Origin: Bacteroidia bacterium
GTDB lineage: Bacteria; Bacteroidota; Bacteroidia; CAILMK01; JBBDIG01
Assembly (NCBI GenBank): GCA_040880525.1
Contig: JBBDIG010000016.1
Coordinates: forward strand, 1 to 64,000
Reading direction: 5' to 3'
Length of the DNA: 64,000 bases
The translations under genes and the position numbers were made by a program. Shown here one piece after another: positions 4,317 through 59,679 of the stretch; position 1 is the first letter of the stretch, and every line of letters begins with the position of its first letter. The notes beneath the pieces are model-generated. The model searched no databases. It saw only the letters and a list, made by a program, of their open reading frames with translations, and was not told the origin of the DNA.

Positions 4317-6449
4317 TTACACATCCTTCATGCTCAACTGAATTCGCTTTCTTGCTGCGTCCACTTCCAACACTTTTACCTGAACTTGCTGGTTCAGCTT
4401 TACCACATCTGCCGGATTGCTCACAAATTCATTTTTCAGGTTGCTGATGTGGACGAGGCCGTCCTGCTTTACGCCCACGTCAACGAAGGCACCAAAGGCT
4501 GTGATGTTGGTTACCAGCCCCGGCAAGATCATCCCCTCTTCCAGGTCGTCAATTTTTGTGATGCCTTTTGCGAATTCAAAGGTCTCCGCCCTTTTTCGCG
4601 GGTCACGGCCCGGCCTGGCGAGTTCGTCAAGAATATCCGATAGCGTGGGAAGGCCCGTTTCTTCCGTTACGTAGCGCTGCAGATCCACTTTGCTGCGGAT
4701 ATCCTTGTCGCCCACCAGCTCCTCCGGCTTCGCTTTCAGGTCCTTGGCCATTTGCTGCACCACCGCGTAGCTTTCCGGATGAACTGCGGTTTTATCCAGC
4801 GGGTTTTTCGCATCCGGTATCCGAAGAAAACCGGCTGCCTGCTCAAAGGCTTTGCCGCCAAGCCGGGGGACTTTCTTCAACTCCTGCCTGGAACCGAAGG
4901 CGCCATTTTCGCTGCGGTAATCCACAATGTTTTGCGCCAGCGCAGGGCCAAGCCCGGAAACGTAGGTGAGCAGGTGCTTACTGGCCGTATTAAGATTTAC
5001 GCCCACACTGTTCACGGCACTTTCCACCACCTTGTCCAGACCCTGCTTCAATTTGGCCTGGTCCACATCATGCTGGTATTGCCCTACCCCAATGCTCTTG
5101 GCGTCAATTTTCACAAGCTCAGCCAGCGGGTCCATCAGCCTTCTGCCTATGCTCACGGCACCACGCACGGTAACGTCATAGTTGGGAAATTCTTCCCGCG
5201 CCACAGGCGAAGCTGAATACACGGATGCTCCGGCCTCGCTCACCACGTACGCCTGGACATCGCGCTCAAAACGTACCTGCTTCACCAAATGCTCCGTTTC
5301 GCGACTGGCCGTGCCGTTGCCAATGGCGATCGCCTCGGTCTTAAACTGGTTGGCCAGCGTATGCAGCTTTTTAATGGCCGCTGTTTTTTCCTGTTGTGGC
5401 GGGTGCGGATATATGGTTTCGTTGTGAATCAGGTTTCCCTGCTCGTCAAGGCACACAAGCTTGCATCCGGTGCGGTAGCCGGGGTCCAGGGCCATCACGC
5501 GCTTCTGGCCCAAGGGCGCAGCAAGGAGCAACTGCCGCAGGTTCTCGGCAAATATCCTGATAGCTTCCTCGTCCGCGCGCTCCTTCAGGCTGCTCCTGAA
5601 TTCCGTTTCGATGCCCGGTTGCAGCAGCCGTTTGTAGCTGTCTTTCATGGCCAATTCCAGTTGAGAAGCCGTGGCTTCCGAACTGCCACGTTTTATGAAG
5701 ATCCGACCAAGCTGCTCAAGGGCCTCCTCTTCCGGTGGCGCTATGCTCACCCGCAAATACCCCTCATCCTCACCGCGCCTGATGGCCAGAATGCGATGCG
5801 AAGGCGCCCGCCACTGCGACTCTTCGTAGTTGAAGTAGTCCTTGTACTTTATGGCCTCCTCAGCCTTAGCTTTCACCACTTTAGCCTGAAGCGTTCCTTT
5901 TTTGCTGAATAACCAACGCACTTTGTTCCGGGCGGCCGGACTTTCGTTTATCCATTCAGCAATAATGTCGCGTGCCCCTTGCAGCGCCTCTTGTTCATCG
6001 GCTACTTCATCTGTAATAAACTGGCGGGCACGGGCTTCAATATCCCGTTCGTGCTGCGCCATGATAATTTTGGCCAGGGGCTCCAATCCCTTCTGGCGTG
6101 CTGCGCTGGCCCGTGTTTTACGCTTCGGCTTGTATGGCAGGTAAAGGTCTTCCAGTTCCGGCAGCGACCATGTATTCTCAATTTGCTGGCGCAATTCCTC
6201 TGTCAGGTTCCCTTGCTCGTCAATCGTTTTAAGGATTGTCTGTTTGCGCCTGGCCACTTCCTGCAGCTTTTGCAGCAACAAGTGGATATCACCTATCTGC
6301 ACTTCGTCAAGGCTGCCCGTCCGCTCCTTCCGGTATCGTGAAATAAACGGGATCGTAGCGCCTTCCTCCAGAAGCGCAACAGTATTCTCCACCTGCCTGT
6401 GCTGAATGGAGAGTTGAGCAGAAATCAGATCTATGAATTGCGTAGCCAT
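4317..6449 (-). CDS. tex: Tex-family RNA-binding transcription accessory protein
   Basis: The product is a cytoplasmic Tex protein. In order it shows the helical N-terminal Tex region with ATIPFISRYRKERTG, a YqgF/RNase H-like domain starting at MALDPGYRTGCK, a helix-hairpin-helix segment with YVSGLGPALAQNIV, and a C-terminal S1 domain with LPGLVTNITAFGAFVDVG. Tex proteins bind nucleic acid and affect transcription and stress tolerance. I place the start at 6449 (MATQFIDLI) instead of the longer ORF start at 6518, because residues before it are not Tex-like and the extra DNA overlaps an htpG remnant. About 710 residues is slightly short of the usual length but complete. It is transcribed alone, convergent with 3489-4244. 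Confidence 0.93.
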   Translation of the reverse strand: MATQFIDLISAQLSIQHRQVENTVALLEEGATIPFISRYRKERTGSLDEVQIGDIHLLLQKLQEVARRKQTILKTIDEQGNLTEELRQQIENTWSLPELEDLYLPYKPKRKTRASAARQKGLEPLAKIIMAQHERDIEARARQFITDEVADEQEALQGARDIIAEWINESPAARNKVRWLFSKKGTLQAKVVKAKAEEAIKYKDYFNYEESQWRAPSHRILAIRRGEDEGYLRVSIAPPEEEALEQLGRIFIKRGSSEATASQLELAMKDSYKRLLQPGIETEFRSSLKERADEEAIRIFAENLRQLLLAAPLGQKRVMALDPGYRTGCKLVCLDEQGNLIHNETIYPHPPQQEKTAAIKKLHTLANQFKTEAIAIGNGTASRETEHLVKQVRFERDVQAYVVSEAGASVYSASPVAREEFPNYDVTVRGAVSIGRRLMDPLAELVKIDAKSIGVGQYQHDVDQAKLKQGLDKVVESAVNSVGVNLNTASKHLLTYVSGLGPALAQNIVDYRSENGAFGSRQELKKVPRLGGKAFEQAAGFLRIPDAKNPLDKTAVHPESYAVVQQMAKDLKAKPEELVGDKDIRSKVDLQRYVTEETGLPTLSDILDELARPGRDPRKRAETFEFAKGITKIDDLEEGMILPGLVTNITAFGAFVDVGVKQDGLVHISNLKNEFVSNPADVVKLNQQVQVKVLEVDAARKRIQLSMKDV

Positions 6450-6509
6450 CCTGCAAAGTTCAGCAATGCGGGGTTTATAAACAGGATGGAAAATGATAAG
6501 AAACCCCTG

Positions 6510-6625
6510 GTGAAGCAAGTGTTTGATTTGGAGCGGCTGTCAAAGAATATGCTGAATGGGAAAGAGCTGACGGAGTAGATACAGCGGAGTTTGAATTATT
6601 TGTAGGTCTGGATTCTATTCGGAAA
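6510..6625 (+). pseudogene. Remnant of the 3' end of htpG, with its downstream hairpin
   Basis: Bases 6510-6605 align by eye with the last part of the intact htpG (about 37335-37432). They read VFDLERLSKNMLNGKELTE, then a stop where htpG has FVQ, then QRSLNYL and the TAG. The decayed copy of the palindrome that follows the intact htpG stop is also present (TGTAGGTCTGGATTC against TGTAGGTCCGAATTG). The piece therefore includes the original gene end. It lies on the + strand like every other htpG piece in the window. Confidence 0.8.
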
Positions 6626-7584: not shown

Positions 7585-7731
7585 GAGGAGCCACGGCTTT
7601 GCTTCAAATATCTTCGATAATAGATGGATATGAATTGGGCGCAAATGGCGGAGGACATTACAATTCGACTCAGACGATATATGCGGCTACTGTTTACTGT
7701 AAAAAATTCTTCTATGACAAACACTATTAGA
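7585..7731 (+). pseudogene. C-terminal remnant of an unidentified gene upstream of the first beta-barrel gene
   Basis: A frame open before the barrel start encodes DGYELGANGGGHYNST and ends FFYDKHY at a TAG inside the barrel gene's first codons. The end (KKFFYDKHY) recurs before the second barrel gene at about 9006-9035. I do not recognise the source protein. It looks like the end of a gene deleted from both units to different extents. Confidence 0.3.
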
Positions 7732-8433: not shown

Positions 8434-8568
8434 GTCGCGAAACAGTGGGCTCGCTGATGGAAGTCGCCAATAATTTCCTTTATAATGAGTTTCAGATCAA
8501 ACATGTTTCCTTTGTATAAGGAAACAAATTTAGCATTTTTCCTTGAAGTTGGGAAATGGCGTCTATTG

Positions 8569-8760
8569 AGAACCGGCCCTGGTCATCACCCGTGATGAAT
8601 TCATGCACAGGATGCGCGATATGAGCAAGCTCGGAGGCGGAATGATGATGGGAGAAGTACAACCTGAAGATCAACACCAACCACCCGCTGGCCAGGAAGT
8701 TCAGCCAAGCAGGCTTGGTAGATGCGAAAGGCACAGAAACCGCCAATGGTTATAAGAAAG
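8569..8760 (+). pseudogene. Remnant of the htpG 3' region (about codons 540-605)
   Basis: From the PALVITRDEFM segment through DMSKLGGGMMMG, and then, after an 11-base deletion (CAACTTCCCCG missing), through the NLKINTNHPL region in another frame, the DNA aligns with the intact htpG near 37128-37330. It keeps the SKLGGG variant of the intact gene rather than the SKPGGG variant of several other pieces. It ends at GAAAG, where copy 2 of the 89-bp repeat begins. Confidence 0.8.
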
Positions 8761-8846
8761 CCTTGTTCAGGAATGGATGGAGCGTTTTATATTTTAATCA
8801 AAAACAGAGGAAAATTAGCTGTTAATAAAATTTTTACTAAACTTTG
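8758..8846 (+). repeat. Copy 2 of the 89-bp direct repeat
   Basis: Nearly identical to 6641-6729. It begins exactly where the htpG remnant loses its similarity, so the htpG piece appears to be part of the duplicated unit's edge. Confidence 0.8.
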
Positions 8847-8985: not shown

Positions 8986-9017
8986 TGAAATGAAAATGGT
9001 TCGTAAAAAATTCTTCT

Positions 9018-9740: not shown

Positions 9741-10075
9741 GTCGCGAACAGCCATAAATTCTTATGCCTGTGCCTGCAAGCTCTAACGGGCAGCAGGTGG
9801 AATGCCAGACGGTGATCAAGATTACGATGCTTGAATCGAAGATCAATAAGGGAAAAATAAATATCGTCAAAAAGCTTCCCGTCATCTTATGAAAGCTTTT
9901 ATATAAACTCTTTGTGAAGCCCAGAGATGCGATCGGCACTGAACCTGTTCTTCCTCCATTTCTTCTATTAAAATTCCAGTAGAGCAATTAATTAAACCAA
10001 TATTTTTTACTATAAATAAATTTAAAAACCAATAAATTAAAATCTTACAATTATACTAATCCTTGCAGATATTAT
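9741..10075. other. Intergenic region with a 42-codon ORF (9764-9892)
   Basis: The + strand ORF at 9764-9892 starts MPVPASSNGQQV and ends KKLPVIL. It resembles the end of a degraded gene more than a start, and I recognise no family. The rest is AT-rich spacer before the convergent end of rdgB. Confidence 0.25.
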
Positions 10076-12746: not shown

Positions 12747-14015
12747 ATGAAAGCGACACAATTCACGGAACATGCAGAAGTGCTGAAAGTCATAGACAGC
12801 TTAAAGAAAGCTGGCATCCGGCAGAAGAAATTTACAGACATCGCAGATGATGAGGGCCTTCAGTACGTAGACCTTGTAATGGAAGGCGGGGGTGTACTGG
12901 GCATCGCCCTGGTAGGATTTGTTTATGTGCTGGAGGAGATGGGGATCCGCTTCCTGAAGATGGGCGGAGCCTCAGCCGGGTCAATCAATGCGATGCTGAT
13001 GGCGGCTGCCGGCCCCATCAATGAGCGCAAATCTGCCTGGATCACTGAGAAGCTGGCCAACAAAAACCTGGGCGAATTGGTGGATGGCGACAATGACGCC
13101 AAAGACTTTGTAAAAGCCCTGCTTGAAAAGTCAAAGACCATAAAAATGATGTGGAAGGGATGGCAGGTAATTGATAATTTCAATGAAGATTTCGGGCTGA
13201 ACCCTGGCGATAATTTCCATGAATGGCTATCAGGAATGCTTAGGGAGAAAGGAGTCCATACGATGGCCGACCTCAACAGGATCCGGGAGGAAATGCCTGC
13301 CGGCCTTCGCAACATCCGGAATAACGAACCTTACAAAAATTATAAGAGGCTTGGATTTGTTTCCGCTGATATTACTACTTCCACAAAAACCACCTTTCCG
13401 GAAATGGCTGACCTCTATTGGGCAGATCCGGAGGCCGTAAACCCGGCAGATTTTATCCGTGCCTCAATGTCCATTCCGCTGTTCTTCCATCCGTTCCGTG
13501 TGAAGAATATTCCCACAGGCCCCGGCCAGCGGGATAAGTGGAAGGAAAAATCAGGCTTCCTTGGAAATATTCCTGAGGAGGTATTTTTTATTGATGGCGG
13601 TATGATGAGCAACTTTCCAATTGACTTATTCCACAATTTCAATTCTGTGCCTACCGCGCCAACTTTTGGTGTTAAGCTCGGAGTAGATCGCGTTTCTCCC
13701 AATAACATCAGCAAGTTTCCACAGATGGCGGGCGCCACTTTCGATTCGATCCGCAATGTACATGACTACACTTTCCTGCAAAAGAATCCTGACTACCGCC
13801 ACCTCATCGCCATCATCCGCTATGGAAACCACGACTGGCTGGACTTTTACCTTAGCGATGAAGCCAAAATTGACCTCTTTAAAAACGGAGCTATTTACGC
13901 AGGTGAGTTTTTGCAAACGTTCAACTGGGAAAATTATAAGGATGTCCGCAAGAGCCTGGCAGAAATGAACGTGAAATCTGACAGAATGAAAGGGCAGGCA
14001 GAGGCGAATTCATAA
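12747..14015 (+). CDS. Patatin-like phospholipase
   Basis: The 422-residue product carries the complete catalytic signature of patatin-like serine lipases: oxyanion loop EGGGVLG (residues 46-52), nucleophile elbow GASAG with Ser76, and the dyad aspartate in DGGMMSNFP (Asp283). It has no signal peptide and is probably cytoplasmic or peripheral. These enzymes deacylate phospholipids or other lipids; the precise substrate is unknown. About 40 residues precede the catalytic core. The gene is monocistronic and ends before a strong hairpin shared with the convergent TonB receptor gene. Confidence 0.88.
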   Translation: MKATQFTEHAEVLKVIDSLKKAGIRQKKFTDIADDEGLQYVDLVMEGGGVLGIALVGFVYVLEEMGIRFLKMGGASAGSINAMLMAAAGPINERKSAWITEKLANKNLGELVDGDNDAKDFVKALLEKSKTIKMMWKGWQVIDNFNEDFGLNPGDNFHEWLSGMLREKGVHTMADLNRIREEMPAGLRNIRNNEPYKNYKRLGFVSADITTSTKTTFPEMADLYWADPEAVNPADFIRASMSIPLFFHPFRVKNIPTGPGQRDKWKEKSGFLGNIPEEVFFIDGGMMSNFPIDLFHNFNSVPTAPTFGVKLGVDRVSPNNISKFPQMAGATFDSIRNVHDYTFLQKNPDYRHLIAIIRYGNHDWLDFYLSDEAKIDLFKNGAIYAGEFLQTFNWENYKDVRKSLAEMNVKSDRMKGQAEANS

Positions 14016-16575: not shown

Positions 16576-16765
16576 GATTGTCCCGGCAATTATTTTGTTG
16601 ATTTTAATGCTGAGACAATTGAAGTTGAGGATACCCTCCAAGAAAATTCAGGTTTTAAAAGATCACTCTAAATAGACCTTGATATTCCGGTTTTCTGGTG
16701 GATAGTTCCCTTTTTCTGAAATATCGTATAGCTCCCACATTTCAATTTTAATGACGCTTCATATC

Positions 16766-16911
16766 AGTATCCCTGTCCTTCAGGGAAGGGTAAAAAAACG
16801 AACACTCCTTTGCTCAGGGCTTCAGCCCTTTTATATCATCACGGGAATACCGGAAAGGGCTAAAGCCCTGCAAGCGGTTTGGAGCATTTCATTTCCTCCG
16901 ACCTGAAGGAC
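16766..16911. repeat. Nested inverted-repeat element in a gene-free gap
   Basis: The 381-base gap upstream of the TonB receptor contains an inner 17-bp pair of arms (16815-16831 and 16854-16870; CAGGGCTTCAGCCCTTT against its near-perfect complement). An outer pair, TGTCCTTCAGG and CCTGAAGGACG, lies to each side. Repeats with 'GGGCTTCAGCCC' and 'CTGAAGGACGGAGCTCC' are typical scattered intergenic elements of Bacteroidetes. No protein gene is visible. It may act as a terminator or be a non-autonomous mobile repeat. Confidence 0.65.
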
Positions 16912-17974: not shown

Positions 17975-19033
17975 TCAGGCAATGCTTATTTTTTTCTCCA
18001 GATATACATCCTGGATGGCATTGAGCAATTCCACGCCTTCCTTCATAGGGCGCTGAAAAGACTTGCGGCCGGAGATTAAACCACTGCCGCCTGCCCGTTT
18101 GTTCACCACGGCAGTAAACACCGCTTCAGCCATATCCGATGCGCCTGAGGAAGCTCCGCCTGAATTGATAAGCCCGATACGGCCCATATAGCAATTGGCC
18201 ACCTGATACCTGCAAAGGTCAATCGGATGGTCAGATGACAGCTCATCATAAACTTTCTTATGCGTTTTGCCAAACTTCAATGCATTGTACCCGCCATTTA
18301 ACTCAGGGAGTTTTTGCTTAATAATATCCGCCTGAATCGTAACTCCCAAATGGTTGGCCTGCCCGGTAAGGTCAGCCGAGGTATGATAATCCGTACCCTC
18401 TTTTTTAAAGGCATTGTTTCGGGTATAGCACCAGAGAATGGTGGGCAATCCTAACTCATGGGCACGTTCAAATGCCTGGGCCACCTCCACGATCTGGCGG
18501 GAGGACTCATCAGAGCCGAAATAAATAGTAGCCCCCACGGCTGCGGCTCCCAGGTTCCATGCATCATCTACCGATCCGAACATGATCTGATCGTATTTAT
18601 TCGGGTAGGTCATCAATTCATTGTGGTTCAGCTTCACGATGAAAGGGATTTTGTGGGCATATCTGCGGGCAGCATTGGCAAGAACGCCAAAAGTGGTAGC
18701 CACTGCATTGCAGCCGCCTTCTATTGCAAGCTTCACAATATTTTCAGGATCAAAATAAATGGGATTTGGCGCAAAAGACGCGCCTGCTGAATGCTCTATC
18801 CCCTGATCAACAGGAAGAATGGACAGATACCCTGTATTGCCCAGGCGGCCATGGCCATAAATGGCCTGCAGATTTCGCAATGTCTGTACGCTGCGGTTTG
18901 AATCCTTAAAGCGCTCTTCCACAACGTTGGGGGAAGGAAGGTGCAGCAAATCTTTGCTTATTGTGCTGCTCACATGGTTCAGCAGTTTTTCGGAATCCTT
19001 GCCCAGCAAACCTGCAATCTTATCGTAACTCAT
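17975..19033 (-). CDS. fbaB: Class I fructose-bisphosphate aldolase (DhnA/FbaB type)
   Basis: The 352-residue product is a Schiff-base aldolase of the bacterial/archaeal DhnA family, which cleaves fructose 1,6-bisphosphate in glycolysis and runs in reverse in gluconeogenesis. Family landmarks are [33 protein letters not shown], the segment [10 protein letters not shown] and, near the C-terminus, [13 protein letters not shown]. It is complete and cytosolic. It is divergent from 19192 and precedes accD on the same strand. Confidence 0.92.
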
Positions 19034-19496: not shown

Positions 19497-19853
19497 ATGG
19501 CTGACGAAACGATCCTTCGCCCTGAAGCTACATTTCCACAACAATCCACGCCCAATTCCACGGCTGTGCTGATATTGGGCATCGTGTCCATTGTCACCTG
19601 CTGGTGCTGGGGCATCGGGATCATTCCTGCTATCGCAGCCATTTTTATGGCCTCCCGTGGCAAAAAGGAATATGAAGCACATCCTGAAAGATTTACAGTC
19701 AGTTCCTACAACAACCTGAAGGCAGGAAAGGTGGTGGCTATTATTGGTCTTATCCTGTGCGTAATAGTTGTTCTACTATCCTTGATCAGCAATATTTTCT
19801 TCCATGATGAAATCAGGGAAATGATGGAGGAACTGCAGCAACAGGAATTCTGA
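19497..19853 (+). CDS. CCC-motif membrane protein
   Basis: The 118-residue product begins with a short polar segment, then NSTAVLILGIVSIVTCWCWG and a second helix containing GKVVAIIGLILCVIVVLLS. This layout (two helices around a charged loop with KKEYEAHPE) matches the small 'CCC motif membrane protein' family of Bacteroidetes, although the cysteines here are reduced to CWCWG. Its role is unknown. The stop overlaps the next start (TGATG), so it is co-translated with the ureohydrolase. Confidence 0.7.
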   Translation: MADETILRPEATFPQQSTPNSTAVLILGIVSIVTCWCWGIGIIPAIAAIFMASRGKKEYEAHPERFTVSSYNNLKAGKVVAIIGLILCVIVVLLSLISNIFFHDEIREMMEELQQQEF

Positions 19854-20914
19854 TGGCAAAAACGCCACGTGAGGAAAAACTTGCATCCTTCAATCCTGAT
19901 TTTAATGGACTGGAAGCAAAGGGCCTTTTCGGACTGCCCTTTACGCCTGCCGAATCTACGGTGGTGGTAGTGCCCGTTCCCTGGGAAGTAACAGTTTCTT
20001 ATGGTGCCGGTACTGCCCATGCGCCTGCCGCTATTCTGGAAGCCTCACAGCAAATTGACCTGCATGATTTTCACTTTGGCAAGGCATGGCAACATGGATT
20101 TGCGATGGATGCCATTCAACCGCTGTGGGAACAACGAAATGCTGAGTTGAGGCTTCTCGCTGAGCCGTACATTAAAACGCTGGAATCCGGAAAAATGCAG
20201 ACATCCGCGAGTGATTTTTCGCTGGAACTTGAGAAGATCAATGAAGGCTGCTCGGAGATGGTGGATGATGTTGAGGATGTGACGCGGCAATGGCTCAGCA
20301 AAGGGAAGCTTGTGGGCATTGCAGGCGGGGATCACAGTTCTCCGCTGGGATTGATGCGCACGCTGGCTATTCAGCATCCGGGATATTCTGTCCTGCAACT
20401 TGATGCGCACGCAGATCTGCGTCCGGCCTATGAGGGTTTTGAATTCTCTCACGCTTCTATTATGCACAATGCCCTGAAGATCTCAGCGATCGAAAACCTG
20501 GTTCAGGTAGGTATCCGGGATATTTCTCAGGGAGAATCAGACGTAATTAAAAAAGCGGAGGGCCGCATAAAGGTCTTTTATGATGCTGCGCAAAAGGAGC
20601 AATTATTCAGGGGGAAGTCCTGGGCCTATTGCTGCGATGAGATCGTTGAGAGCCTGGAGAAGAAAGTTTATATCAGCTTTGATATTGACGCGCTGGAACC
20701 CCATTTATGCCCCAATACCGGGACGCCCGTTCCGGGAGGACTTTCATTTGAACAAGCAGTTTTTCTGCTGGAAACGCTGGTAAAAAGCGGTCGCCAGATT
20801 ATTGGTTTTGACTTGTGCGAAGTTTCACCTGGCCAGAATGAGTGGGATGCTAATGTCGGAGCACGGATGCTCTATAAACTCTGCGGCTTTGCAGCTACTG
20901 CTTTAAAGGCATAA
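19853..20914 (+). CDS. Agmatinase/arginase-family ureohydrolase
   Basis: The 353-residue product has the binuclear manganese site of ureohydrolases: GGDHSSPLG, DAHADLRP (DxHxD) and SFDIDALEP (DxD). Agmatinase, arginase, guanidinobutyrase and related enzymes share these motifs. Agmatinase (putrescine plus urea from agmatine) is a common annotation, but residues alone do not fix the substrate. It has an insertion around residues 85-145 relative to short bacterial agmatinases, including a stretch rich in Glu/Asp. It is the last gene of the DUF2752/CCC cluster and overlaps the previous stop by one base. Confidence 0.85.
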   Translation: MAKTPREEKLASFNPDFNGLEAKGLFGLPFTPAESTVVVVPVPWEVTVSYGAGTAHAPAAILEASQQIDLHDFHFGKAWQHGFAMDAIQPLWEQRNAELRLLAEPYIKTLESGKMQTSASDFSLELEKINEGCSEMVDDVEDVTRQWLSKGKLVGIAGGDHSSPLGLMRTLAIQHPGYSVLQLDAHADLRPAYEGFEFSHASIMHNALKISAIENLVQVGIRDISQGESDVIKKAEGRIKVFYDAAQKEQLFRGKSWAYCCDEIVESLEKKVYISFDIDALEPHLCPNTGTPVPGGLSFEQAVFLLETLVKSGRQIIGFDLCEVSPGQNEWDANVGARMLYKLCGFAATALKA

Positions 20915-35512: not shown

Positions 35513-37432
35513 GTGAAAACCGGAACATTAAACGTACATACCGAGAACATTTTCCCGATTATTAAGAAATTCCTTTACAGCGATGAGGAGATTTTTCTGC
35601 GGGAACTGGTGAGCAACGCGCAGGATGCCACCAAGAAAGTGGAGACCATAGCACGCAAAGGCGACCTGACGGAAGAGCTGGGCGAGCTGAAACTGAAAGT
35701 GACCATTGACAAGGAAAACCGCACCATCACCGTGAGCGACCGCGGCATAGGGATGACAGAAGAAGAACTGGACAAATACCTGAACCAGATCGCGCTGAGC
35801 AGTGCGGAGGAGTTCGTGGAGAAATACAAGGACGTGGAGGACAGGAAGCAGATCATCGGCAAGTTTGGCCTGGGCTTCTACTCTGCGTTTATGGTGTCTG
35901 ACAAAGTGGAGGTGCAGACCAAAAGCTGGCAGAAGGATGCCAAGCCTGCCGTTTGGGAATGCGAGGGTGATACCAACTTCAAGATAAAGCGCGGAACGAG
36001 GAAGGAGCGCGGTACGGACGTGATACTGCACATCAACAAGGATTCTGACGAATACCTGGAGCCCGCACGCATCAAGACGCTGCTGGAGAAATACTGCCGC
36101 TTCATGCCGTTCGAGATCGAGTTTGAGGGCGAGGTGATCAATAACCCCAACCCCATCTGGCTGAAGCAGCCTGCCGACCTCACCGCGCAGGACTATCAGG
36201 ACTTCTACAAAGAGCTGTACCCGTTCAGCCAGCCGCCCCTGTTCTGGATCCACCTCAATGTAGACTACCCCTTCCGCCTCACCGGCATTTTGTACTTCCC
36301 CAAAATCACCAACCAGATAGAGCTACAGCAGAACAAAATACAGCTTTACCAGAACCAGGTGTTCGTAACCGATGAGGTGAAGGACATCGTGCCCGAGTTC
36401 CTCACGCTGCTGCATGGCGTCATTGATTCGCCCGACATCCCGCTGAACGTGAGCCGCAGCTACCTACAGGCTGACCGCAGTGTGAAGCAGATCAGCAACT
36501 ACATCGTGAAGAAAGTGGCCGAAAAGCTGGAGGAGCAGTTCAAGAACGAGCGCGAGGCATACGAGAGCAAGTGGCAGGACATCAACATGTTTGTGAAATA
36601 CGGCATGCTCAGCGATGACAAGTTCCGCGAGCGGGCCGAGAAGTTTATGCTGGTGGAGAATACCGATGGCAAGCGCTTCACCATAGAGGAATACAACGAA
36701 AAGGTGAAGCCGCTGCAAACCGACAAGGAAGGCAACACCGTGTGGCTCTACACCAACAACCCTGACGAACAGCACGGCTACATTGATGCCGCCCAAAAGA
36801 AAGACTTCGATGTGCTGGTGCTGCGCGAAATGATTGACAACCACGGGGTGCAGATGCTGGAAAGCAACCAGGAGAAGCTGAATATCAAGCGCGTGGATGC
36901 CGACACGCCCGACAAGCTCATTGACAAGGGCGAAGAAAAGCAAAGCGTCCTGAGCGAAGAGCAGATCAGCAAGGTGAAGGCGCTGTTTGAGGAGGTGGTG
37001 AATGGCAGCCCCTCCCCGGCCCTCCCCCTGGGGGAGGGAGAAAAGGCGGGTGAAGAGAAAGTCTCACCCCAGCGGGGAGATTTAGAGGGGGGCATGTTTG
37101 CGGTAGAGACCGAAGCCATGAGCCCCGAAGAACCGCCCCTGGTCATCACCCGCGATGAATTCATGCGCAGGATGAGCGACATGAGCAAGCTCGGTGGCGG
37201 AATGATGATGGGCAACTTCCCCGAAAAGTACAACCTGAAGATTAACACCAACCACCCGCTGGCCAAGAAGCTCAGCGAAGCCGGCCTGGTAGATGCCAAA
37301 GGCTCCGAAACCGCCAGTGCAGACAAGAAAGCCCTGGCCAAGCAGGCATTTGACCTGGCGCGGCTAAGCCAGAATATGCTGAAAGGGAAAGAGCTGACAG
37401 AGTTTGTGCAGCGGAGTATTAACAGCTTGTAG
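35513..37432 (+). CDS. htpG: HtpG, Hsp90-family chaperone, with an in-frame repeat insertion
   Basis: The GTG at 35513 begins MKTGTLNVHTENIFPI. The GHKL ATPase domain shows ELVSNAQDATKK, VSDRGIGMTEEEL and GKFGLGFYSAFMV. The middle domain and C-terminal dimerisation domain follow, ending FVQRSINSL (639 residues, normal length). HtpG is an ATP-driven cytosolic chaperone dimer. Residues about 499-527 are unusual: they are encoded by an 86-bp GC-rich palindromic repeat (37008-37093) and read SPSPALPLGEGEKAG and so on. The gene is visibly richer in GC than its AT-rich surroundings. Many broken pieces of htpG follow downstream on the same strand, but this copy looks complete and functional. Confidence 0.95.
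   Translation: MKTGTLNVHTENIFPIIKKFLYSDEEIFLRELVSNAQDATKKVETIARKGDLTEELGELKLKVTIDKENRTITVSDRGIGMTEEELDKYLNQIALSSAEEFVEKYKDVEDRKQIIGKFGLGFYSAFMVSDKVEVQTKSWQKDAKPAVWECEGDTNFKIKRGTRKERGTDVILHINKDSDEYLEPARIKTLLEKYCRFMPFEIEFEGEVINNPNPIWLKQPADLTAQDYQDFYKELYPFSQPPLFWIHLNVDYPFRLTGILYFPKITNQIELQQNKIQLYQNQVFVTDEVKDIVPEFLTLLHGVIDSPDIPLNVSRSYLQADRSVKQISNYIVKKVAEKLEEQFKNEREAYESKWQDINMFVKYGMLSDDKFRERAEKFMLVENTDGKRFTIEEYNEKVKPLQTDKEGNTVWLYTNNPDEQHGYIDAAQKKDFDVLVLREMIDNHGVQMLESNQEKLNIKRVDADTPDKLIDKGEEKQSVLSEEQISKVKALFEEVVNGSPSPALPLGEGEKAGEEKVSPQRGDLEGGMFAVETEAMSPEEPPLVITRDEFMRRMSDMSKLGGGMMMGNFPEKYNLKINTNHPLAKKLSEAGLVDAKGSETASADKKALAKQAFDLARLSQNMLKGKELTEFVQRSINSL
37008..37093 (+). repeat. GC-rich palindromic repeat inserted in frame within htpG
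   Basis: The stretch begins GCCCCTCCCCGGCCC, contains CCTCCCCCTGGGGGAGG and ends GGGGAGATTTAGAGGGGGGC; its ends are rough inverted complements. This type of sequence is normally intergenic. Here it keeps the htpG frame and adds about 29 residues in the linker before the C-terminal domain. Right-half copies lie at 45267-45300 and 46548-46580 at another position of htpG-derived DNA. Confidence 0.75.
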
Positions 37433-41688: not shown

Positions 41689-41787
41689 GGTATCAAATGT
41701 AGCATGTAAAACAATACAAGATTCCACTGCACAAAAATAATTTTGATGGAATTTTACAACCTTTTGGTTAGACAACAAACGTCTATT

Positions 41788-41947
41788 CAAGCCGACCGCA
41801 GTGTGAAGCAGATCAGCAACTACATCGTGAAGAAGGTGGCCGAGAAGCTGGACGAGCAGTTCAAGAACGAGCGAGAGGCATACGAGACGAAGTGGCAGGA
41901 CATCAACAAGTTCGTAAAATACGGCATGCTCAACACCAACAACCCTT
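41788..41947 (+). pseudogene. htpG fragment A1 (codons about 320-367)
   Basis: The sequence encodes ADRSVKQISNYIVKKVAEKL through FVKYGML as in intact htpG near 36470-36612, with small differences such as DEQ for EEQ. It then jumps to ACACCAACAACCCT, which matches 36749-36763. The left edge lies at about the same htpG codon as fragments B and C. The reading frame ends in NPSRV. Confidence 0.85.
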
Positions 41948-41960
41948 CAAGGGTTTAGCC

Positions 41961-42097
41961 GCAGGTTGAGCGACATGAGCAAACCCGGTGGCGGAATGAT
42001 GATGGGCAACTTCCCCGAGAAGTACAACCTGAAGATTAACACCAACCACCCGCTGGCCAAGAAGTTCAGCGAAGCCGGACAGGTAGACGCCAAAGGC
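41961..42097 (+). pseudogene. htpG fragment A2 (codons about 552-597)
   Basis: It encodes MSDMSKPGGGMMMGNFPEKY through VDAKG, matching htpG 37167-37300, and runs without break into the DUF433 cassette. SKPGGG instead of SKLGGG separates it from the resident htpG. Confidence 0.85.
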
Positions 42098-42146
42098 ATT
42101 CTTTTGGCAGCATTATTACCACTAAATTTGTTGAAAGAGCATAGAT

Positions 42147-42383
42147 ATGGATCAGTCCCTTCAAAATCGTATTACCGTAAATCCTGACATTTGCCACGGC
42201 AAACCAACCATCCGCAACACCCGCATGATGGTGGAAAGCCTGCTTGAGTATTTAGCTGCCGGTGACACCATTGAGGATATCCTGGCCGAATTTCCTAACC
42301 TTGAGCGGGAGGACATTTTAGCCGCAATAGCGTACGCTAACCGGATTCTCCAATTTAAAAACATCTCCTTCAAAGTAGCTTAA
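42147..42383 (+). CDS. DUF433 antitoxin
   Basis: The 78-residue product is a DUF433 protein, a winged-helix antitoxin usually paired with a DUF5615 PIN-like toxin. It shows ITVNPDICHGKPTIRNTR and VESLLEYLAAGDTIEDIL, followed by a helix with LEREDILAAIAYA. It overlaps the toxin start by one base (TAATG). Upstream lies htpG fragment A2. It is the first intact module of the toxin-antitoxin array. Confidence 0.92.
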   Translation: MDQSLQNRITVNPDICHGKPTIRNTRMMVESLLEYLAAGDTIEDILAEFPNLEREDILAAIAYANRILQFKNISFKVA

Positions 42384-42736
42384 TGCGGTTCATTGTAGAT
42401 GCACAACTACCGCCTTCCTGGGCTAACATCTTAAAGGAGGCCGGGCATGAGGCTATGCATACCAGAGAACTTCCTGATGGAAATGATACTTCGGACAGCT
42501 TTATCATAGAAATGGCAACCACCCAAGGATGGGTAGTAATAACTAAGGACACTGATTTTCTCTACTCTTTCTTAACTACCGGACGTCCACCAAGACTTGT
42601 TCTGGTGCGCCTTGGAAATATGAGGTTACGGAATATTAATATGGCTTTAAGCAATAATGTGAACTTGCTAATAGACTGCCTTAATGAAGGTTCCTTAATT
42701 GAACTCTGGCCTGACGAGATTAGGATAGTTTATTAA
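42383..42736 (+). CDS. DUF5615 PIN-like toxin
   Basis: The 117-residue product has the PIN-like core of DUF5615: FIVDAQLPP at the start (conserved aspartate), then HEAMHTRELPDGNDTSD and GWVVITKDTDF with the further acidic residues expected of a metal-dependent RNase. It is coupled to the DUF433 antitoxin. The pair looks intact and could be a working addiction module. htpG fragment B follows 47 bases later. Confidence 0.92.
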   Translation: MRFIVDAQLPPSWANILKEAGHEAMHTRELPDGNDTSDSFIIEMATTQGWVVITKDTDFLYSFLTTGRPPRLVLVRLGNMRLRNINMALSNNVNLLIDCLNEGSLIELWPDEIRIVY

Positions 42737-42783
42737 AGGAACTGGGTGTCGCAAATTGCGATACCCAAATTGATTACGTAGCA

Positions 42784-42876
42784 TGAACCAGATAAGCAAC
42801 TACATCGTAAAGCAGGTGGCCGAGAAGCTGGAGGAGCAGTTCAAGAACGAGCGCGAGGCGTACGAGAGCAAGTGGG
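42784..42876 (+). pseudogene. htpG fragment B (codons about 323-354)
   Basis: It matches htpG 36485-36575 from CAGATAAGCAACTACATCG to GAGAGCAAGTG. The right edge is at the same base as that of fragment C (44347-44449). The 3' end of the hepT gene runs through it on the other strand. Confidence 0.85.
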
Positions 42877-43213
42877 AGCTGCAAATTATTCCCTCAGCCT
42901 TTCCATCCCTCAACTTCGGAAGGTGCCTTTTCAAAATAGCCCAAACTGTGGTGTTATCAATTGCATCATAAGCATGTATGAGCCAGTTCCTGAAACCGAT
43001 TATTTTCGCGGCATTGTCAATCTGGTTATTTGGGTGGGCTTTGAGAAACCTGTTAACCGCCTCCCCTATAATGGCCAACTGCCTTTCTACGGCACTCCGG
43101 GTTTTTGCATCAGCTTCATAGTCTGCCAAAGTTTTTATGTCTGCAGTAAACTCTTCCACCTTTTGGGCAGCAATTAGAATGTCAGACAAGTACTTTTTCT
43201 CCTTCCCGGTCAT
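42800..43213 (-). CDS. hepT: HepT-like ribonuclease toxin (DUF86) with an antisense-htpG tail
   Basis: The product begins with a HEPN-type helical domain, and its active-site motif is visible in FRNWLIHAYDAID (R-x4-6-H). HepT is an RNase kept in check when its partner MntA AMPylates it. The normal C-terminus seems to end near the LKRHLPKLRDGKAEGII segment. The last 24 or so residues (SSHLLSYASRSFLNCSSSF and on) are simply the opposite strand of htpG fragment B. The gene has therefore lost its own stop and is a junction chimera. Activity may survive, because the catalytic motif is intact. It overlaps mntA by 32 bases. Confidence 0.85.
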   Translation of the reverse strand: MTGKEKKYLSDILIAAQKVEEFTADIKTLADYEADAKTRSAVERQLAIIGEAVNRFLKAHPNNQIDNAAKIIGFRNWLIHAYDAIDNTTVWAILKRHLPKLRDGKAEGIICSSHLLSYASRSFLNCSSSFSATCFTM

Positions 43214-43523
43214 AGATGAGTACTTTGGTGGATTCTACATTTTCACGCAAGTAAGCGTTTTCTATTGGCTGGTCGGTCAGCAAATCCACCTTTCTATTGA
43301 AGAAGTCCTGAAGTGCCATATAAAAATCCAGGAGCAACTCCCCTTTCTCAATGGGATCGGTTTCATCAATCTCAACCATCAAATCAATGTCACTGGAATT
43401 ATCGGAAAAATTAGCTGAAACACTTGAGCCAAATGCAAAAAGATATTTTACATGATGCGCCTGACAGAGCGTGCGCAATTCATTTTCCCTTCCGTGGAGG
43501 ATCTTACTTAGTGGCAAGTTCAT
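43182..43523 (-). CDS. mntA: MntA-like nucleotidyltransferase antitoxin
   Basis: The start at 43523 (MNLPLSKILHG) gives 113 residues with the minimal nucleotidyltransferase signature FGSSVSANFSDNSSDIDL (GS then DxD) and a later FNRKVDLLTD. In MntA/HepT pairs this enzyme adds AMP to a tyrosine next to the HepT active site. It precedes and overlaps hepT, the standard order. Confidence 0.92.
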   Translation of the reverse strand: MNLPLSKILHGRENELRTLCQAHHVKYLFAFGSSVSANFSDNSSDIDLMVEIDETDPIEKGELLLDFYMALQDFFNRKVDLLTDQPIENAYLRENVESTKVLIYDREGEKVLV

Positions 43524-43654
43524 ATTCAAAACTAACTGATTTTTCGCTGATCCTGTTGCATTGCTAATCACAACCCTGCTGGCGCAAGTATTTCATGAGC
43601 TTTCCCTGGGACAGGGCTGGATTTTTTGGTAGCATTTGTTCTTAAATTGCAGGT

Positions 43655-43846
43655 ATGAAATCAATTGTCGTCACACCTCGAAATGCCAGGGAAATGGAGT
43701 TTCTTCTGAAATTGCTGGAGAAGCTCGGAATCAAGAACAAGTCACTGTCAGAAGAGGAAATGGAAGATGCCGGACTGGCCTTGCTCATGCGGGAAGGAAA
43801 TCGTAATGATAAAGTTTCGGAACACGAAATCTTGGCAAAGTTGTAG
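43655..43846 (+). CDS. Small antitoxin-like protein
   Basis: The 63-residue product MKSIVVTPRNAREMEF continues with LLKLLEKLGIKNKSLSEEEM and resembles the next ORF (helix, acidic turn, helix). Both look like the short antitoxins found before RelE-type toxins. This copy has no adjacent toxin of its own, so it may be a duplicate. No DNA-binding domain is obvious. Confidence 0.55.
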   Translation: MKSIVVTPRNAREMEFLLKLLEKLGIKNKSLSEEEMEDAGLALLMREGNRNDKVSEHEILAKL

Positions 43847-43873
43847 TCGCCTTTGAGAAATAAACAGCAAATC

Positions 43874-44071
43874 ATGAAAACAGCGTTAATATCATCTGAA
43901 TCTGGAAAGGACCTGAAGCTTATTCTCGAAATTGCAAAACGAATGGGGCTCAATTTCAAGCAACTCTCTGATGAGGAAATTGAGGATTTTGGTCTCATTG
44001 AAGCCATAAGATCAGGAAAAACGGGAGAAACGGTTAACACTGAAGAATTCCTGAAGGAACTGGAGCCTTGA
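43874..44071 (+). CDS. Antitoxin of a RelE-type module
   Basis: From the ATG at 43874 (MKTALISSESGKDLK) the product is 65 residues, with LEIAKRMGLNFKQLSDEEIED and an acidic C-terminus. It overlaps the toxin start (TTGA). It is similar in layout to 43655-43846, with shared phrases around L.EEE/DEE.ED. Confidence 0.72.
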   Translation: MKTALISSESGKDLKLILEIAKRMGLNFKQLSDEEIEDFGLIEAIRSGKTGETVNTEEFLKELEP

Positions 44072-44337
44072 TAGTCCTGATTGATAAAAAATTCAAGAAA
44101 GACCTAAGCGAAAAACGAGATGTCCAGTTAAACAAGAAAGTTGCTGCTGCTATTCGTGACGTACAGGTTGCTGGGACATTGCAGGAAATTCAGCACCTAA
44201 AAAAGCTTAAGGCTACAGGTGAATTCTACAGGATCAGGATTGGCGACTACAGAATTGGCATTGAGAAAACCGGATCAACCACCCTTTTATTTGTTCGATT
44301 TATTCATAGAAAAGACATCTATCGCTATTTCCCTTGA
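44068..44337 (+). CDS. RelE/ParE-type toxin (TTG start)
   Basis: The 89-residue product starts at TTG 44068, overlapping the antitoxin stop. It has the RelE-like order: IDKKFKKDLSEKRD, a helix with LNKKVAAAI, HLKKLKATGEFYRIRIGDYRIGI and a final strand LFVRFIHRKDIYRYFP. RelE toxins cut mRNA on the ribosome. It appears intact. htpG fragment C follows within ten bases. Confidence 0.88.
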   Translation: MIVLIDKKFKKDLSEKRDVQLNKKVAAAIRDVQVAGTLQEIQHLKKLKATGEFYRIRIGDYRIGIEKTGSTTLLFVRFIHRKDIYRYFP

Positions 44338-44346
44338 TCAGGTGAC

Positions 44347-44449
44347 CCGACCGTAGTTCAAAGCAGATCAGCAACTACATCGTGAAGAAGGTGGCCGGGA
44401 AGCTGGACGAACAGTTCAAGAACGAGCGCGAGTCATACGAGAGCAAGTG
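44347..44449 (+). pseudogene. htpG fragment C (codons about 320-354)
   Basis: It matches htpG 36471-36574 (GACCG..AAGCAGATCAGCAAC to GAGAGCAAGTG). The left edge is that of A1 and the right edge is that of B. The next bases belong to a PIN-domain remnant. Confidence 0.85.
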
Positions 44450-44602
44450 ATTAACAGGATTGACTACCTGGTAAGCTGGAATTACAAACATTCGGCAAAC
44501 GTTAACCGTGAAAGAAGAATAAAAGCAATAAACGAAGCAAATAATTATTTACATCCCATAAGGATATTAACACCCATTGAATTGATTCACTATGAAAACT
44601 GA
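44450..44602 (+). pseudogene. C-terminal remnant of a PIN-domain toxin
   Basis: The open frame reads INRIDYLVSWNYKHSANVN and ends ILTPIELIHYEN. This is the usual last third of a VapC-like PIN toxin (the phrase IDYLVSWN.KH is typical). The N-terminal catalytic part is missing and replaced by htpG fragment C. It overlaps the downstream small protein by 11 bases, as in an intact toxin/partner pair. Confidence 0.7.
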
Positions 44603-44768
44603 TGACCTAAAATCAATACAGGAAGTGTGGGAGTGGAAGGAAAGGGCAAACGCAAAAATCAAAGACCTTCCTACGGCTGAGCAACTTAATGCTATCCGTG
44701 AAAGTACCCGGAAAATCAGGGAATGGGTAGAAGCCCAAAAGGCTAAGAAGAAAGGCCAAGTTGCTTGA
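44592..44768 (+). CDS. Small partner (antitoxin-like) of the truncated PIN toxin
   Basis: The 58-residue ORF MKTDDLKSIQEVWEWKERAN has an all-helical, charged sequence. Proteins with the phrase SIQEVWEWKE commonly follow PIN toxins in Bacteroidetes and cyanobacteria and are presumed antitoxins. Here it is complete but its toxin is truncated. Confidence 0.55.
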   Translation: MKTDDLKSIQEVWEWKERANAKIKDLPTAEQLNAIRESTRKIREWVEAQKAKKKGQVA

Positions 44769-44773
44769 TAACA

Positions 44774-44851
44774 TTAAAATACTTTACGCTTGGCAAACTG
44801 TAACTCACAGCCATTTTCCCTCAGGTGTTTAATAAGTTTATGACGCTTCTT
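44774..44851 (-). pseudogene. HicA toxin remnant
   Basis: On the minus strand one frame reads KKRHKLIKHLRENGCELQF and then a stop. This is the N-terminal half of a HicA mRNA interferase (normally continuing through the catalytic histidine). A stop codon immediately precedes it, so it has no start. The catalytic part is absent. Confidence 0.65.
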
Positions 44852-45063
44852 TCACAGTCGATCACTTCAATAGTATATTGCTTCCCGGCAAATTCTTTCT
44901 TTAATTCATCCCGGTTTGCTTCCATTAACAACTTAAGTGCATCCTTTAAATTAGCTTTTAGTTCCTCAATTGTCTTCCCCTGTGAAAGTGCAGCCGGGAA
45001 TTCTTCCAGTTGGCCAACATACCAGCCATCTTCTGACTTTTCAATAATTGCTGTTAATTTCAT
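44821..45063 (-). CDS. hicB: HicB-family antitoxin
   Basis: The 80-residue product from 45063 (MKLTAIIEKSEDGWYVG) has the partial RNase H-like HicB fold with YVGQLEEFPAALSQGKTIEEL. Its final residues CERSVINLLNT come from reading into the HicA remnant in the wrong frame, so a small shift has altered its end. With no functional HicA it is an orphan or decaying antitoxin. Confidence 0.8.
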   Translation of the reverse strand: MKLTAIIEKSEDGWYVGQLEEFPAALSQGKTIEELKANLKDALKLLMEANRDELKKEFAGKQYTIEVIDCERSVINLLNT

Positions 45064-45110
45064 AAGTGTAAAGTTAAAAGGATTTAGACGCAAATAATGC
45101 ACCTGTTGTT

Positions 45111-45376
45111 GAATTTATGCGCAGATCAGCGACATGAGCAAACCCCGGTGGTGGCGGTATGATGATGGCCAACTTCCCCGAAAAGCACAACCTGAAGATC
45201 AACACAAACCACCCGCTGGCCCAAAAAACTCAGCAAAGCCGGACTGGTAGATGCCAAAGGAAAAGAAGTCTCCCCAAAGGGGGGAGATTTAGAGGGGGCC
45301 GCCAGTGCCAATAAGAAAGCACTTGCCAAGCAGGCGTTTTACCTGGCGCGGCTGTCAAAGGTTATTCAGCGGAAGG
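45111..45376 (+). pseudogene. htpG fragment D (codons about 550-635, with internal losses)
   Basis: From GAATTTATGCGCAGATCAGCG through SKPRWWR-like frameshifted sequence to GCGCGGCTGTCAAAG it follows htpG 37155-37374, then skips to CAGCGGA. It includes a half palindromic repeat (45267-45300) between VDAKG and ASANKK. Several one-base changes break the frame. Confidence 0.8.
45267..45300 (+). repeat. Half copy of the palindromic repeat in htpG fragment D
   Basis: AGTCTCCCCAAAGGGGGGAG and ATTTAGAGGGGGCC match the right half of 37054-37093 but sit about 70 codons further along the htpG coding sequence. Confidence 0.7.
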
Positions 45377-45465
45377 AATTTATTCAAGGGGGCTGTGTTG
45401 AAGAGGCTAAACGATTTTTGATTAGCGAGGTGAACATTTAGAATTCGTATAATTGTAATAAAGCG

Positions 45466-46407
45466 ATGATCATGAAAAATACCTCACCAACCTTTTTGTT
45501 ATTGGTAGCTCTAATGGGCTGCTTAATAAATGCGAATGCGCAGAATATGGTGCCAAATCCAGGTTTTGAAGAATTGAACACTTGTCCTTCGGAGCAAAGC
45601 CAACTCAATGCTACCAAAAACTGGCATAGTTTACGTGAAACCCCGGACTACTTTAATACCTGCGCAAAACCCGGCATGTCACCTACACAGTTCAATGCCG
45701 GGATACCTCGTAATACCTGGGGATATCAACCGGCTGCGTATGGAGAGGGGTATGCCGGTATTATGCTGTATTATTCACCTCAGGTTGACTTCCGTGAATT
45801 TTTAACGGTCAAGCTAAAGGAACCACTCATTTCAGGAAGGCGCTATCAAATAAGTTTTGTAGTAAGCCTGGCTAACCACGGTGGAAGAAATCCCCCCCAT
45901 ATGAGCTGCAACAACTTGGGCATTCTATTTAATTTTGGAAGCATCGAAGGGATCCCCAACTTTGCGCATGCGTTTATTGATACTTTGATTGAAGATACGC
46001 TTCAGTGGGTAGAAGTTAAATTCAACTACCTGGCAGATCAGGCTTATACCCACCTTGCCATCGGCAACTTCTTTGATGATGCTAATACAATAAAAAATAA
46101 AACCTCGTTCTTCTCGCAATATGCCTTTTATTATATTGACGAAGTAAAGGTTATAGCAAACAGGCCACAAATAGTTATTCATCCCAATCCAGTAACCGAG
46201 CAAGTCTTTATCACCAGTTCAGAAGACTTTAGTCCGGATGTTTCATGCAAGATGTACAGCGTTAATGGGCAGAGAATAAACATCGAAGCTATTTTGCATT
46301 CCAGCAATCAGCTCAGTATATATTTCGAAGCATATCGCCCCGGTATCTATATTTTAAGATTAAGGGATAAGGCCGAAGTTTGGCAGGAAAAAATCCTCAA
46401 GATTTAA
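45466..46407 (+). CDS. T9SS type A cargo protein with N-terminal carbohydrate-binding-like domain
   Basis: The 313-residue product has a signal peptide (ending LINANAQ) and begins the mature part with NMVPNPGFEELNTCPSEQS, a common opening of Bacteroidetes surface proteins with a CBM-like jelly-roll. Segments PLISGRRYQISFVVSLA and AYTHLAIGNFFDD fit such a fold. It ends with a type A sorting domain (IVIHPNPVTEQVFIT, GIYILRLRDKAEV). It lies between htpG fragments D and E, so it is one of the cassettes. A possible second start is at 45472. Confidence 0.78.
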   Translation: MIMKNTSPTFLLLVALMGCLINANAQNMVPNPGFEELNTCPSEQSQLNATKNWHSLRETPDYFNTCAKPGMSPTQFNAGIPRNTWGYQPAAYGEGYAGIMLYYSPQVDFREFLTVKLKEPLISGRRYQISFVVSLANHGGRNPPHMSCNNLGILFNFGSIEGIPNFAHAFIDTLIEDTLQWVEVKFNYLADQAYTHLAIGNFFDDANTIKNKTSFFSQYAFYYIDEVKVIANRPQIVIHPNPVTEQVFITSSEDFSPDVSCKMYSVNGQRINIEAILHSSNQLSIYFEAYRPGIYILRLRDKAEVWQEKILKI

Positions 46408-46433
46408 GTTCTTTCAGATTGATGAGACTACTG

Positions 46434-46664
46434 AGTCGGAATGATGATGGGCAACTTCCCCGAGAAGTACAATCTGAAGATCAACACCAACCACCCGTTG
46501 GCGCAGAAGCTCAGCGAAGCCGGACTGGTAGATGCCAAAGGAAAAGAAGTCTCCCCTTTGGGGGAGATTTAGAGGGGGCCTTTGACCTGGCGCGGCTAAG
46601 CCAGAATATGCTGAAAGGGAAGGAACTGACGGAGTTTGTGCAGCGTAGCATCAACAGGCTGTAA
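46434..46664 (+). pseudogene. htpG fragment E (codons about 563-639, includes the stop)
   Basis: It begins at CGGAATGATGATGGGC (htpG 37198), carries the half palindromic repeat after VDAKGKE (46548-46580), then skips to FDLARLSQNMLKGKELTEFV and ends QRSINRL with TAA. The absence of the SADKKALAKQ segment shows a deletion at the repeat. Confidence 0.85.
46548..46580 (+). repeat. Half copy of the palindromic repeat in htpG fragment E
   Basis: AGTCTCCCCTTTGGGGGAGA followed by TTTAGAGGGGGCC, at the same place as in fragment D, so these two fragments descend from one htpG lineage. Confidence 0.7.
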
Positions 46665-46726
46665 GTCAAAGGAACTAACCTCAGGTTGAAATGTTGCGTA
46701 TATTTACACCCATAAAATTTTGTTGT

Positions 46727-46957
46727 ATGAACATTCAGCTTATTTCTGACAGTAACGGAAAAACCACTGGCATTTTCATTCCCATAGAAGAATGGAATGA
46801 ACTTAAAATGAAATTCAAAGGGCTTGAAGATGAGGAGATGGATATACCAGCTTGGCAGAAGCTCAAAATTGAACAACGGCTAAAGGATTATAGAAAAAAG
46901 CCAAAAGAAGCTTTGGATTTTGATAACACAATTGATGAAGTAGATAATTCCATATAA
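46727..46957 (+). CDS. Phd/YefM-like antitoxin
   Basis: From the ATG at 46727 (MNIQLISDSNGKTTG) the 76-residue product has IFIPIEEWNELKMKFKG and an acidic tail with LDFDNTIDEV. This matches short antitoxins that precede RelE/ParE toxins. It overlaps the toxin start by one base (TAATG). Confidence 0.7.
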   Translation: MNIQLISDSNGKTTGIFIPIEEWNELKMKFKGLEDEEMDIPAWQKLKIEQRLKDYRKKPKEALDFDNTIDEVDNSI

Positions 46958-47252
46958 TGTTTAAGGTAATTATATTACCCAAAGCCGCTGAGGACATTCT
47001 AGCAGCGGCCAAATGGTATAATTCCAGGCAAAAAGGCCTCGGTAAAAGATTTACGGCCAAGGTTAGAGAAAAAGTTCACTTTATAAAGCAGAACCCAACA
47101 GCAGTACCCATACGGTATAACGAAGTAAGAACTGCGCTATTGGATACTTTTCCATACATGGTTTATTTGTTGTGGAAGATATTAGTCAACAGGTCGTGAT
47201 CCTGGCTGTTTTTCACACTTCCTTAGACCCGGAAAAGTGGAAGAAAAAATAA
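46957..47252 (+). pseudogene. RelE/ParE-family toxin broken by a one-base frameshift
   Basis: The frame opens MFKVIILPKAAEDILAAA and continues with WYNSRQKGLGKRFTAKV and VRTALLDTFPYMVY, a classic ParE pattern, then stops after ILVNRS at 47199. One frame over, the expected ending VVEDISQQVVILAVFHTSLD leads to EKWKKK and TAA at 47250-47252. One T is missing in the run near 47168. The toxin is therefore probably inactive, while its antitoxin is intact. Confidence 0.82.
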
Positions 47253-47257
47253 TAATC

Positions 47258-47347
47258 GAACCCGAAGAACCACCGCTGGTCATCCCCCGCGATGAATTTA
47301 TACGTAGGATGGCCTACATGAGCAAACCTGATGGCGGAATGATGCCG
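47258..47347 (+). pseudogene. htpG fragment F (codons about 537-567)
   Basis: EPEEPPLVIPRDEFIRRMAY then SKPDGGMM matches htpG 37123-37210, with the SKP variant. It begins right after the original toxin stop and ends where the inverted-repeat element at 47353 starts. Confidence 0.8.
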
Positions 47348-59531: not shown

Positions 59532-59589
59532 TTTTTAACCGGAAATCCACCTATAACCATTTGCAATACCAGGCAACTCACCTGAGAAG

Positions 59590-59620
59590 TTTAACCTGAA
59601 GATCAACACCAACCACCCTG
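59590..59620 (+). pseudogene. Short htpG remnant (about 30 bases)
   Basis: TTAACCTGAAGATCAACACC followed by AACCACCC matches htpG 37232-37259 with few changes. It is a relic 22 kb from the intact gene and 12 kb from the array, again on the + strand. Confidence 0.55.
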
Positions 59621-59679
59621 AACCGTTTTCCCTATCTTATTCATTACCTGATTAAAGAGCAAGTTAGATATTCACAGAA

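Follow-up and report, generated by a model that had tools for sequence, protein, structure and literature searches.

An in-frame composite palindromic element in htpG of a Bacteroidia bacterium and its relatives in other Bacteroidota and viral contigs

The window, a stretch of 64,000 nucleotides from contig JBBDIG010000016.1 of a Bacteroidia bacterium, harbours an intact gene for the Hsp90 chaperone HtpG (Table 1), the product of which matches the NCBIfam HtpG model over residues 3–637 (624 bits). As the original prediction had it, the frame is kept and the protein is otherwise complete, and the 29-residue block at 499–527 (SPSPALPLGEGEKAGEEKVSPQRGDLEGG) is missing from all 80 other HtpG sequences in an alignment with Bacteroidota proteins, the longest few of which have about three extra residues at this place. 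Alignments to the HtpG of relatives in whole-genome searches mostly end near residues 494–499 and restart near 522–531. The nearest relatives are about 55–66% identical, and the empty site is thus seen at the protein level only. The insert comprises a whole number of codons with no stop, leaving htpG as a single intact frame. No clear target-site duplication was seen at its ends, both of which carry GGC, possibly by chance. Rfam gave no match in the window, and the window holds no tRNA genes, so that integration of the tRNA type was rejected.

To place the insert in the protein we turned to an AlphaFold2 model (built from 25 sequences, mean pLDDT 75), in which residues 499–526 have pLDDT below 50 and lie between a helix (482–497) and a strand (529–534). 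In a comparison with PDB structures, the helix preceding the insert aligns with its E. coli HtpG counterpart as far as residue ~522. The modelled site is therefore the loop that joins the first helix of the C-terminal domain to its first strand, at the beginning of that domain, rather than the linker before it as had been predicted. An insert in whole codons without a stop, in such a loop, would leave the HtpG product to survive with a longer, disordered loop.

The insert contains two adjacent hairpins. CCCTCCCCCTGGGGGAGGG forms a separate hairpin, while GGGGAGATTTAGAGGGG pairs with CTCACCCC and supplies the 3' half of another; the two GC-rich sequences that the original prediction had quoted as arms of one inverted repeat are both present in htpG but are divided between these hairpins. 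A type II hairpin precedes a type I hairpin, with about 19 nt between them. For type I the consensus is AAAGTCTCCCC-N4-GGGGGAGATTTAGAGGGGGCT, 36 bp or twelve codons long and open as KVSPxxGDLEGA, and the type II consensus, AGCCCCACCCAACCCTCCCC-N4-GGGAGGGCTT, often forms a hairpin just upstream of type I. We gathered 47 composites of type II and type I elsewhere, with spacers of 4–53 nt (mostly 15–26), and the htpG insert matches them in how its parts are ordered and resembles them in spacing. Judged by its sequence, the insert is a composite member of a family known from other Bacteroidota and from viral contigs. Allowing up to three mismatches, CCTCCCCNNNGGGGGAGG has 10 matches against 1.26 expected, and the 17-mer GGGGAGATTTAGAGGGG occurs exactly three times in the window against an average of 0.12 in shuffles (up to three mismatches). 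An inverted-repeat finder at default settings reported nothing, probably because the arms are short, and the RNA folding energy of the region is near that of shuffles (z of −1.65) and ordinary for its composition.

Table 1. Features of the htpG region in the window, and type I elements inserted in frame in genes of other Bacteroidota
Feature	Position	Strand	Remarks
htpG (Hsp90 chaperone)	35513..37432	+	intact, 639 aa; GC 54%, GC3 77%; GTG start
Composite palindromic element	37007..37093	+	87 nt = 29 codons, residues 499–527; absent from 80/80 other HtpG; matches composite in other genomes
Type II half	37007..37038	+	AGCCCC...CCCTCCCCC-T-GGGGGAGGG hairpin; aligns with AGCCCCACCCAACCCTCCCC-N4-GGGAGGGCTT of other genomes
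Type I half	37058..37093	+	AAAGTCTCACCCCAGCGGGGAGATTTAGAGGGGGGC; matches consensus AAAGTCTCCCC-N4-GGGGGAGATTTAGAGGGGGCT
htpG relic	6447..6623	+	aa 581–640 and a little past the stop
htpG relic	8569..8813	+	aa 540–624; empty type I site
htpG relic	41776..42109	+	aa 315–369 fused to aa 546–601
Toxin-antitoxin-like genes between relics	42147..47199		Pfam: DUF433/DUF5615, HepT/nucleotidyltransferase, RelB/ParE, UPF0150, Unstab_antitox (match below curated cut-off) with small partner ORF
htpG relic	42777..42878	+	aa 322–355; antisense overlap with 3' end of HepT-like ORF
htpG relic	44349..44449	+	aa 321–353; 11 bp after ParE-like gene
htpG relic f45	45110..45387	+	aa 549–633; carries type I
Type I element in f45	45266..45299	+	3' relic, codon ~597; net +30 nt versus empty site
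htpG relic f46	46437..46664	+	aa 563–640; reaches stop codon; carries type I
Type I element in f46	46547..46579	+	3' relic; site as in f45
htpG relic	47261..47344	+	aa 543–565
htpG relic	59572..59637	+	aa 567–588
ArgB-type amino-acid kinase	locus L146		in-frame type I
Alpha-2-macroglobulin-like (A2M-like) protein	locus L147		in-frame type I
T9SS sorting-tail proteins	loci L148, L150		in-frame type I
IspG	locus L199		in-frame type I
N-succinyl/acetylornithine-type carbamoyltransferase	locus L208		in-frame type I
SMC hinge	locus L210		in-frame type I
LeuRS, two genomes	loci L273, L288		in-frame type I
Fused mutase IcmF	locus L286		in-frame type I

The organism's own 3.8 Mb genome has three type I copies, all of them in htpG sequence, one in the gene itself and one in each of two decayed 3' fragments of it (f45 and f46). 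The pattern CTCCCC-N1-8-GGGGAG is found in four places, three of which are htpG or its fragments; the fourth, on another contig, lies in sequence that looks unrelated. Searching the genome with the DNA of the whole insert likewise ties the copies to htpG. The whole-genome searches thereby rule out a dispersed repeat in this genome, and the confinement of the copies to htpG sequence implies that the element has not spread here; the expectation of finding it inside other open reading frames of the genome was not borne out, the two htpG fragments being the only further places. In both fragments the element follows codon ~597, a site that is empty in htpG and in the relic at 8569–8813. Since this site differs from that at residues 499–527, there appear from sequence to have been two separate insertions in htpG alleles of the lineage, the independence of which is unprovable with all copies tied to htpG. 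An assembly artefact or chimera might be suspected in a 60-contig draft genome with local repeats, but it is highly improbable given that the three copies differ in loop and flank, that they occupy unique contexts on one 159-kb contig, and that htpG is one intact frame.

The wider family was found by searching other genomes and viral contigs with the right-hand hairpin of the htpG insert. Type I is present in 7 of 297 genomes of a phylum-wide sample and in 16 of 151 genomes of one family, where it reaches 46 copies per genome and is at zero in many sister genomes; its distribution through Bacteroidota is patchy. Sixty of the 73 distinct type I copies from other genomes have no open reading frame spanning them and 13 lie inside one, while a type II-like palindrome occurs within 75 bp of 41. 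The original description of the htpG block as an intergenic-type palindromic repeat is supported. Viral contigs also carry type I, in 31 stretches and mostly at intergenic positions, and we observed types I and II in intergenic gaps of several such contigs (L156, L171, L174, L180 and others), sometimes more than once per contig. These contigs are probably phages of Bacteroidota, and the element may be passed from host to host by phages. A literature search covering part of the literature returned no mention of the core sequences or peptide in the context of bacterial repeats. Ordinary lineage-specific lengthening of the loop, the palindromes having arisen incidentally from Pro, Gly and Glu codons in a GC-rich gene, is a scarcely credible account of the block: htpG is GC-rich, and some relatives do show loops at this place that differ by a few residues, but the near-identity is to a DNA element in intergenic and other-frame contexts of other genomes and viral contigs, and the exact 17-mer recurs at a different codon in the htpG relics.

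About ten of the 13 copies inside open reading frames are in recognisable genes (Table 1). In the carbamoyltransferase the insert amounts to 34 residues, compared with 2 in the related enzyme of PDB 2fg6. With 73% identity between them, the two LeuRS proteins have the element inserted at different places and oppositely oriented; where L288 carries it, the L273 protein shows a clean 12-residue gap, representing the empty site. Peptides predicted from the family's inserts in LeuRS, IspG and SMC would be of the form KVSPTGGDLEGA. The ArgB, IspG, carbamoyltransferase, SMC, IcmF and LeuRS cases together indicate that the family inserts in frame in housekeeping genes.

We compared the family with known repeat systems. 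Rickettsia palindromic elements (RPE), including the CGTC-tagged RPE-4 and RPE-6, are short palindromic repeats that occur both between genes and in frame within unrelated protein genes (PMC3733652). The htpG insert resembles them in being an in-frame palindromic repeat absent from orthologues, as judged from the 80 HtpG sequences and the LeuRS empty site. The likeness to Rickettsia elements that had been predicted thus stands across the phylum, where the family occurs in many unrelated genes of other Bacteroidota genomes, but fails within this genome, where type I is seen in htpG and two relics and not in many unrelated genes. The family further differs from RPE in that neither its type I nor its type II consensus has a CGTC tag, in the consensus itself and in belonging to another phylum. 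REPs form GTAG and CGTC superfamilies, and their intragenic dimers or groups encode 20–30 residues (PMC3733652). With REPs and paired, BIME-like REPs the family has in common hairpins of 20–40 bp that are multicopy (up to 46) and mostly extragenic in other genomes, though not in this one, an arrangement in pairs with a short spacer, a patchy presence among related genomes, and an occasional location inside repair and housekeeping genes. It differs in that neither consensus is tagged at an end with GTAG or CGTC, and in that we found no cognate RAYT gene beside the element or flanked by it at 30 loci in 9 genomes.

In other systems, the movement of REPs is attributed to Y1 transposases, and TnpA_REP subclass 2.6 of Bacteroidetes is described with 'atypical secondary structures' (PMC6006769). 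This subclass is a candidate mobiliser, being likewise from Bacteroidetes and associated with short structured repeats that have genomic copies. Matches to Y1 transposases were present in 9 of the 10 genomes searched, and no type I or II element lies within about 1.5 kb on either side of the transposase domains at any of the 30 loci in these 9 genomes.

Taken together, the htpG case is a real in-frame insertion of a REP-like composite from a Bacteroidota-wide family, and residues 499–527 are very probably the translation of such an element, inserted into htpG in this organism's lineage. The element would have entered a loop of the C-terminal domain in whole codons, having moved as DNA with a transposase acting in trans, perhaps a Y1/HUH enzyme recognising the hairpin. 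In-frame cases would then be what selection on essential genes leaves, and the translated loop would have no function. Alternatively, the element may have been put to use, with the loop (through contact with a client or cochaperone) or a hairpin in htpG mRNA (through control of translation or decay) now functional and hence kept. The hairpin sequence is indeed well preserved and the block sits within an intact gene, but we think this unlikely in view of the predicted disorder of the loop, the ordinary folding energy and the presence of the same element in many unrelated proteins. Palindromic repeats that are translated as part of proteins have mainly been described in Rickettsia and in some REP-rich genomes. 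The present family is a separate one, common to Bacteroidota and viral contigs, that adds 12 to about 34 residues to enzymes that are essential and conserved (HtpG, LeuRS, IspG, SMC and ArgB). With the empty site visible in a sister protein, it offers a tractable case for studying the conversion of selfish DNA into protein and the protein sites at which insertion is tolerated.

The most unusual part of the htpG insertion case is the scatter of fragments of the gene itself. About ten further htpG pieces lie in the window (6.4–59.6 kb), all on the + strand, on both sides of htpG and within about 30 kb of it, and none was found elsewhere in the genome; the survey of relics and GC3 outside the window covered ~0.79 Mb of stretches, a part of the genome. 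They repeatedly cover two regions of the gene (codons ~318–367 and 540–640) and are 76–94% identical to it. Several are located between toxin-antitoxin-like genes, sometimes 11–50 bp away, and a HepT-like open reading frame (42800–43213, − strand) takes its last ~30 codons from an htpG relic read antisense. Separately, a 0.74-kb gene of unknown family occurs twice (7699–8441 and 9003–9748, 92% identity), each time downstream of an htpG relic. Apart from this unit the DNA between relics is not duplicated, which led us to discount a simple tandem duplication of a larger htpG block. At 98 other htpG loci (1.11 Mb of flanks) no relics were detected, the two short matches on the opposite strand being chance-like, and relics are thus ruled out as a normal feature of Bacteroidota. 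Compared with htpG by codon, four relic pieces show 21 silent and 16 replacing differences, against an expectation of ~79% replacing changes without constraint, and three relics have third-codon differences from the present gene in common. Part of the divergence of the relics therefore arose in a still-working gene.

That no copy of the element lies outside htpG sequence implies either that its activity here is past or that htpG alleles were imported from element-rich relatives. We regard as evenly balanced a refinement of, and one compatible with, the insertion reading, in which homologous recombination with a close element-rich relative delivered an htpG allele already carrying the element, earlier imports having left the relics behind. 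Besides the lack of other copies, the relics are consistent with such an import, in their common third-position differences from htpG, in their mostly silent divergence and in the two that have the element at another site. So is composition: the GC content of htpG is 9 points above that of its surroundings, against −0.1 ± 1.8 at 56 other loci, relatives showing no such excess, and its GC3 of 0.77 (0.75 for the stop-to-stop reading frame) is among the top three of 466 open reading frames (mean 0.49, sd 0.07), although a high GC3 could equally stem from codon bias or biased gene conversion. In a tree, HtpG groups with its own order (support 100/97), which rules out the import from outside the order that GC had hinted at and leaves only import within the order or family.

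Similar patterns were noted at other genes of this genome. The gene mutS has the highest GC3 of the 466 open reading frames (0.76), and past a RelE-like gene and an open reading frame of unknown kind lie two further same-strand copies of its 3' end, next to an AbiEii-like gene (contig C18, L260 9391–11255). A Snf2-type helicase gene has its 3' end present again ~3 kb downstream (contig C37, L319 2898–6465), with a REP-associated tyrosine transposase and a T9SS-type gene in between. On contig C32 (L314), a 177-bp piece present at 16667–16843 and 18377–18553 (93% identical) flanks a duplicated lipoprotein-like gene, next to genes for a GyrB/ParE-type topoisomerase and a GxxExxY protein. From the part of the genome that was sampled, we take such patterns as a lead, rather than a result, towards additive recombination that may recur beside conserved genes. 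It is conceivable, though we lean somewhat against it, that htpG, mutS, the Snf2-type helicase and the neighbour of a type II topoisomerase B gene are sites at which each event adds accessory genes (toxin-antitoxin, RAYT, GxxExxY) and a partial copy of the neighbouring gene. Same-strand relics would then be left between the newcomers, GC3 of htpG and mutS would perhaps be raised, and the palindromic elements in htpG and its relics would be traces of different htpG alleles passing through. At L260 we also observed another intergenic repeat, with CATTCTGAGCGCAGCGAA-like palindromes, at 13800–13952, 14830–14907 and 19846–19984, near PIN-domain genes.
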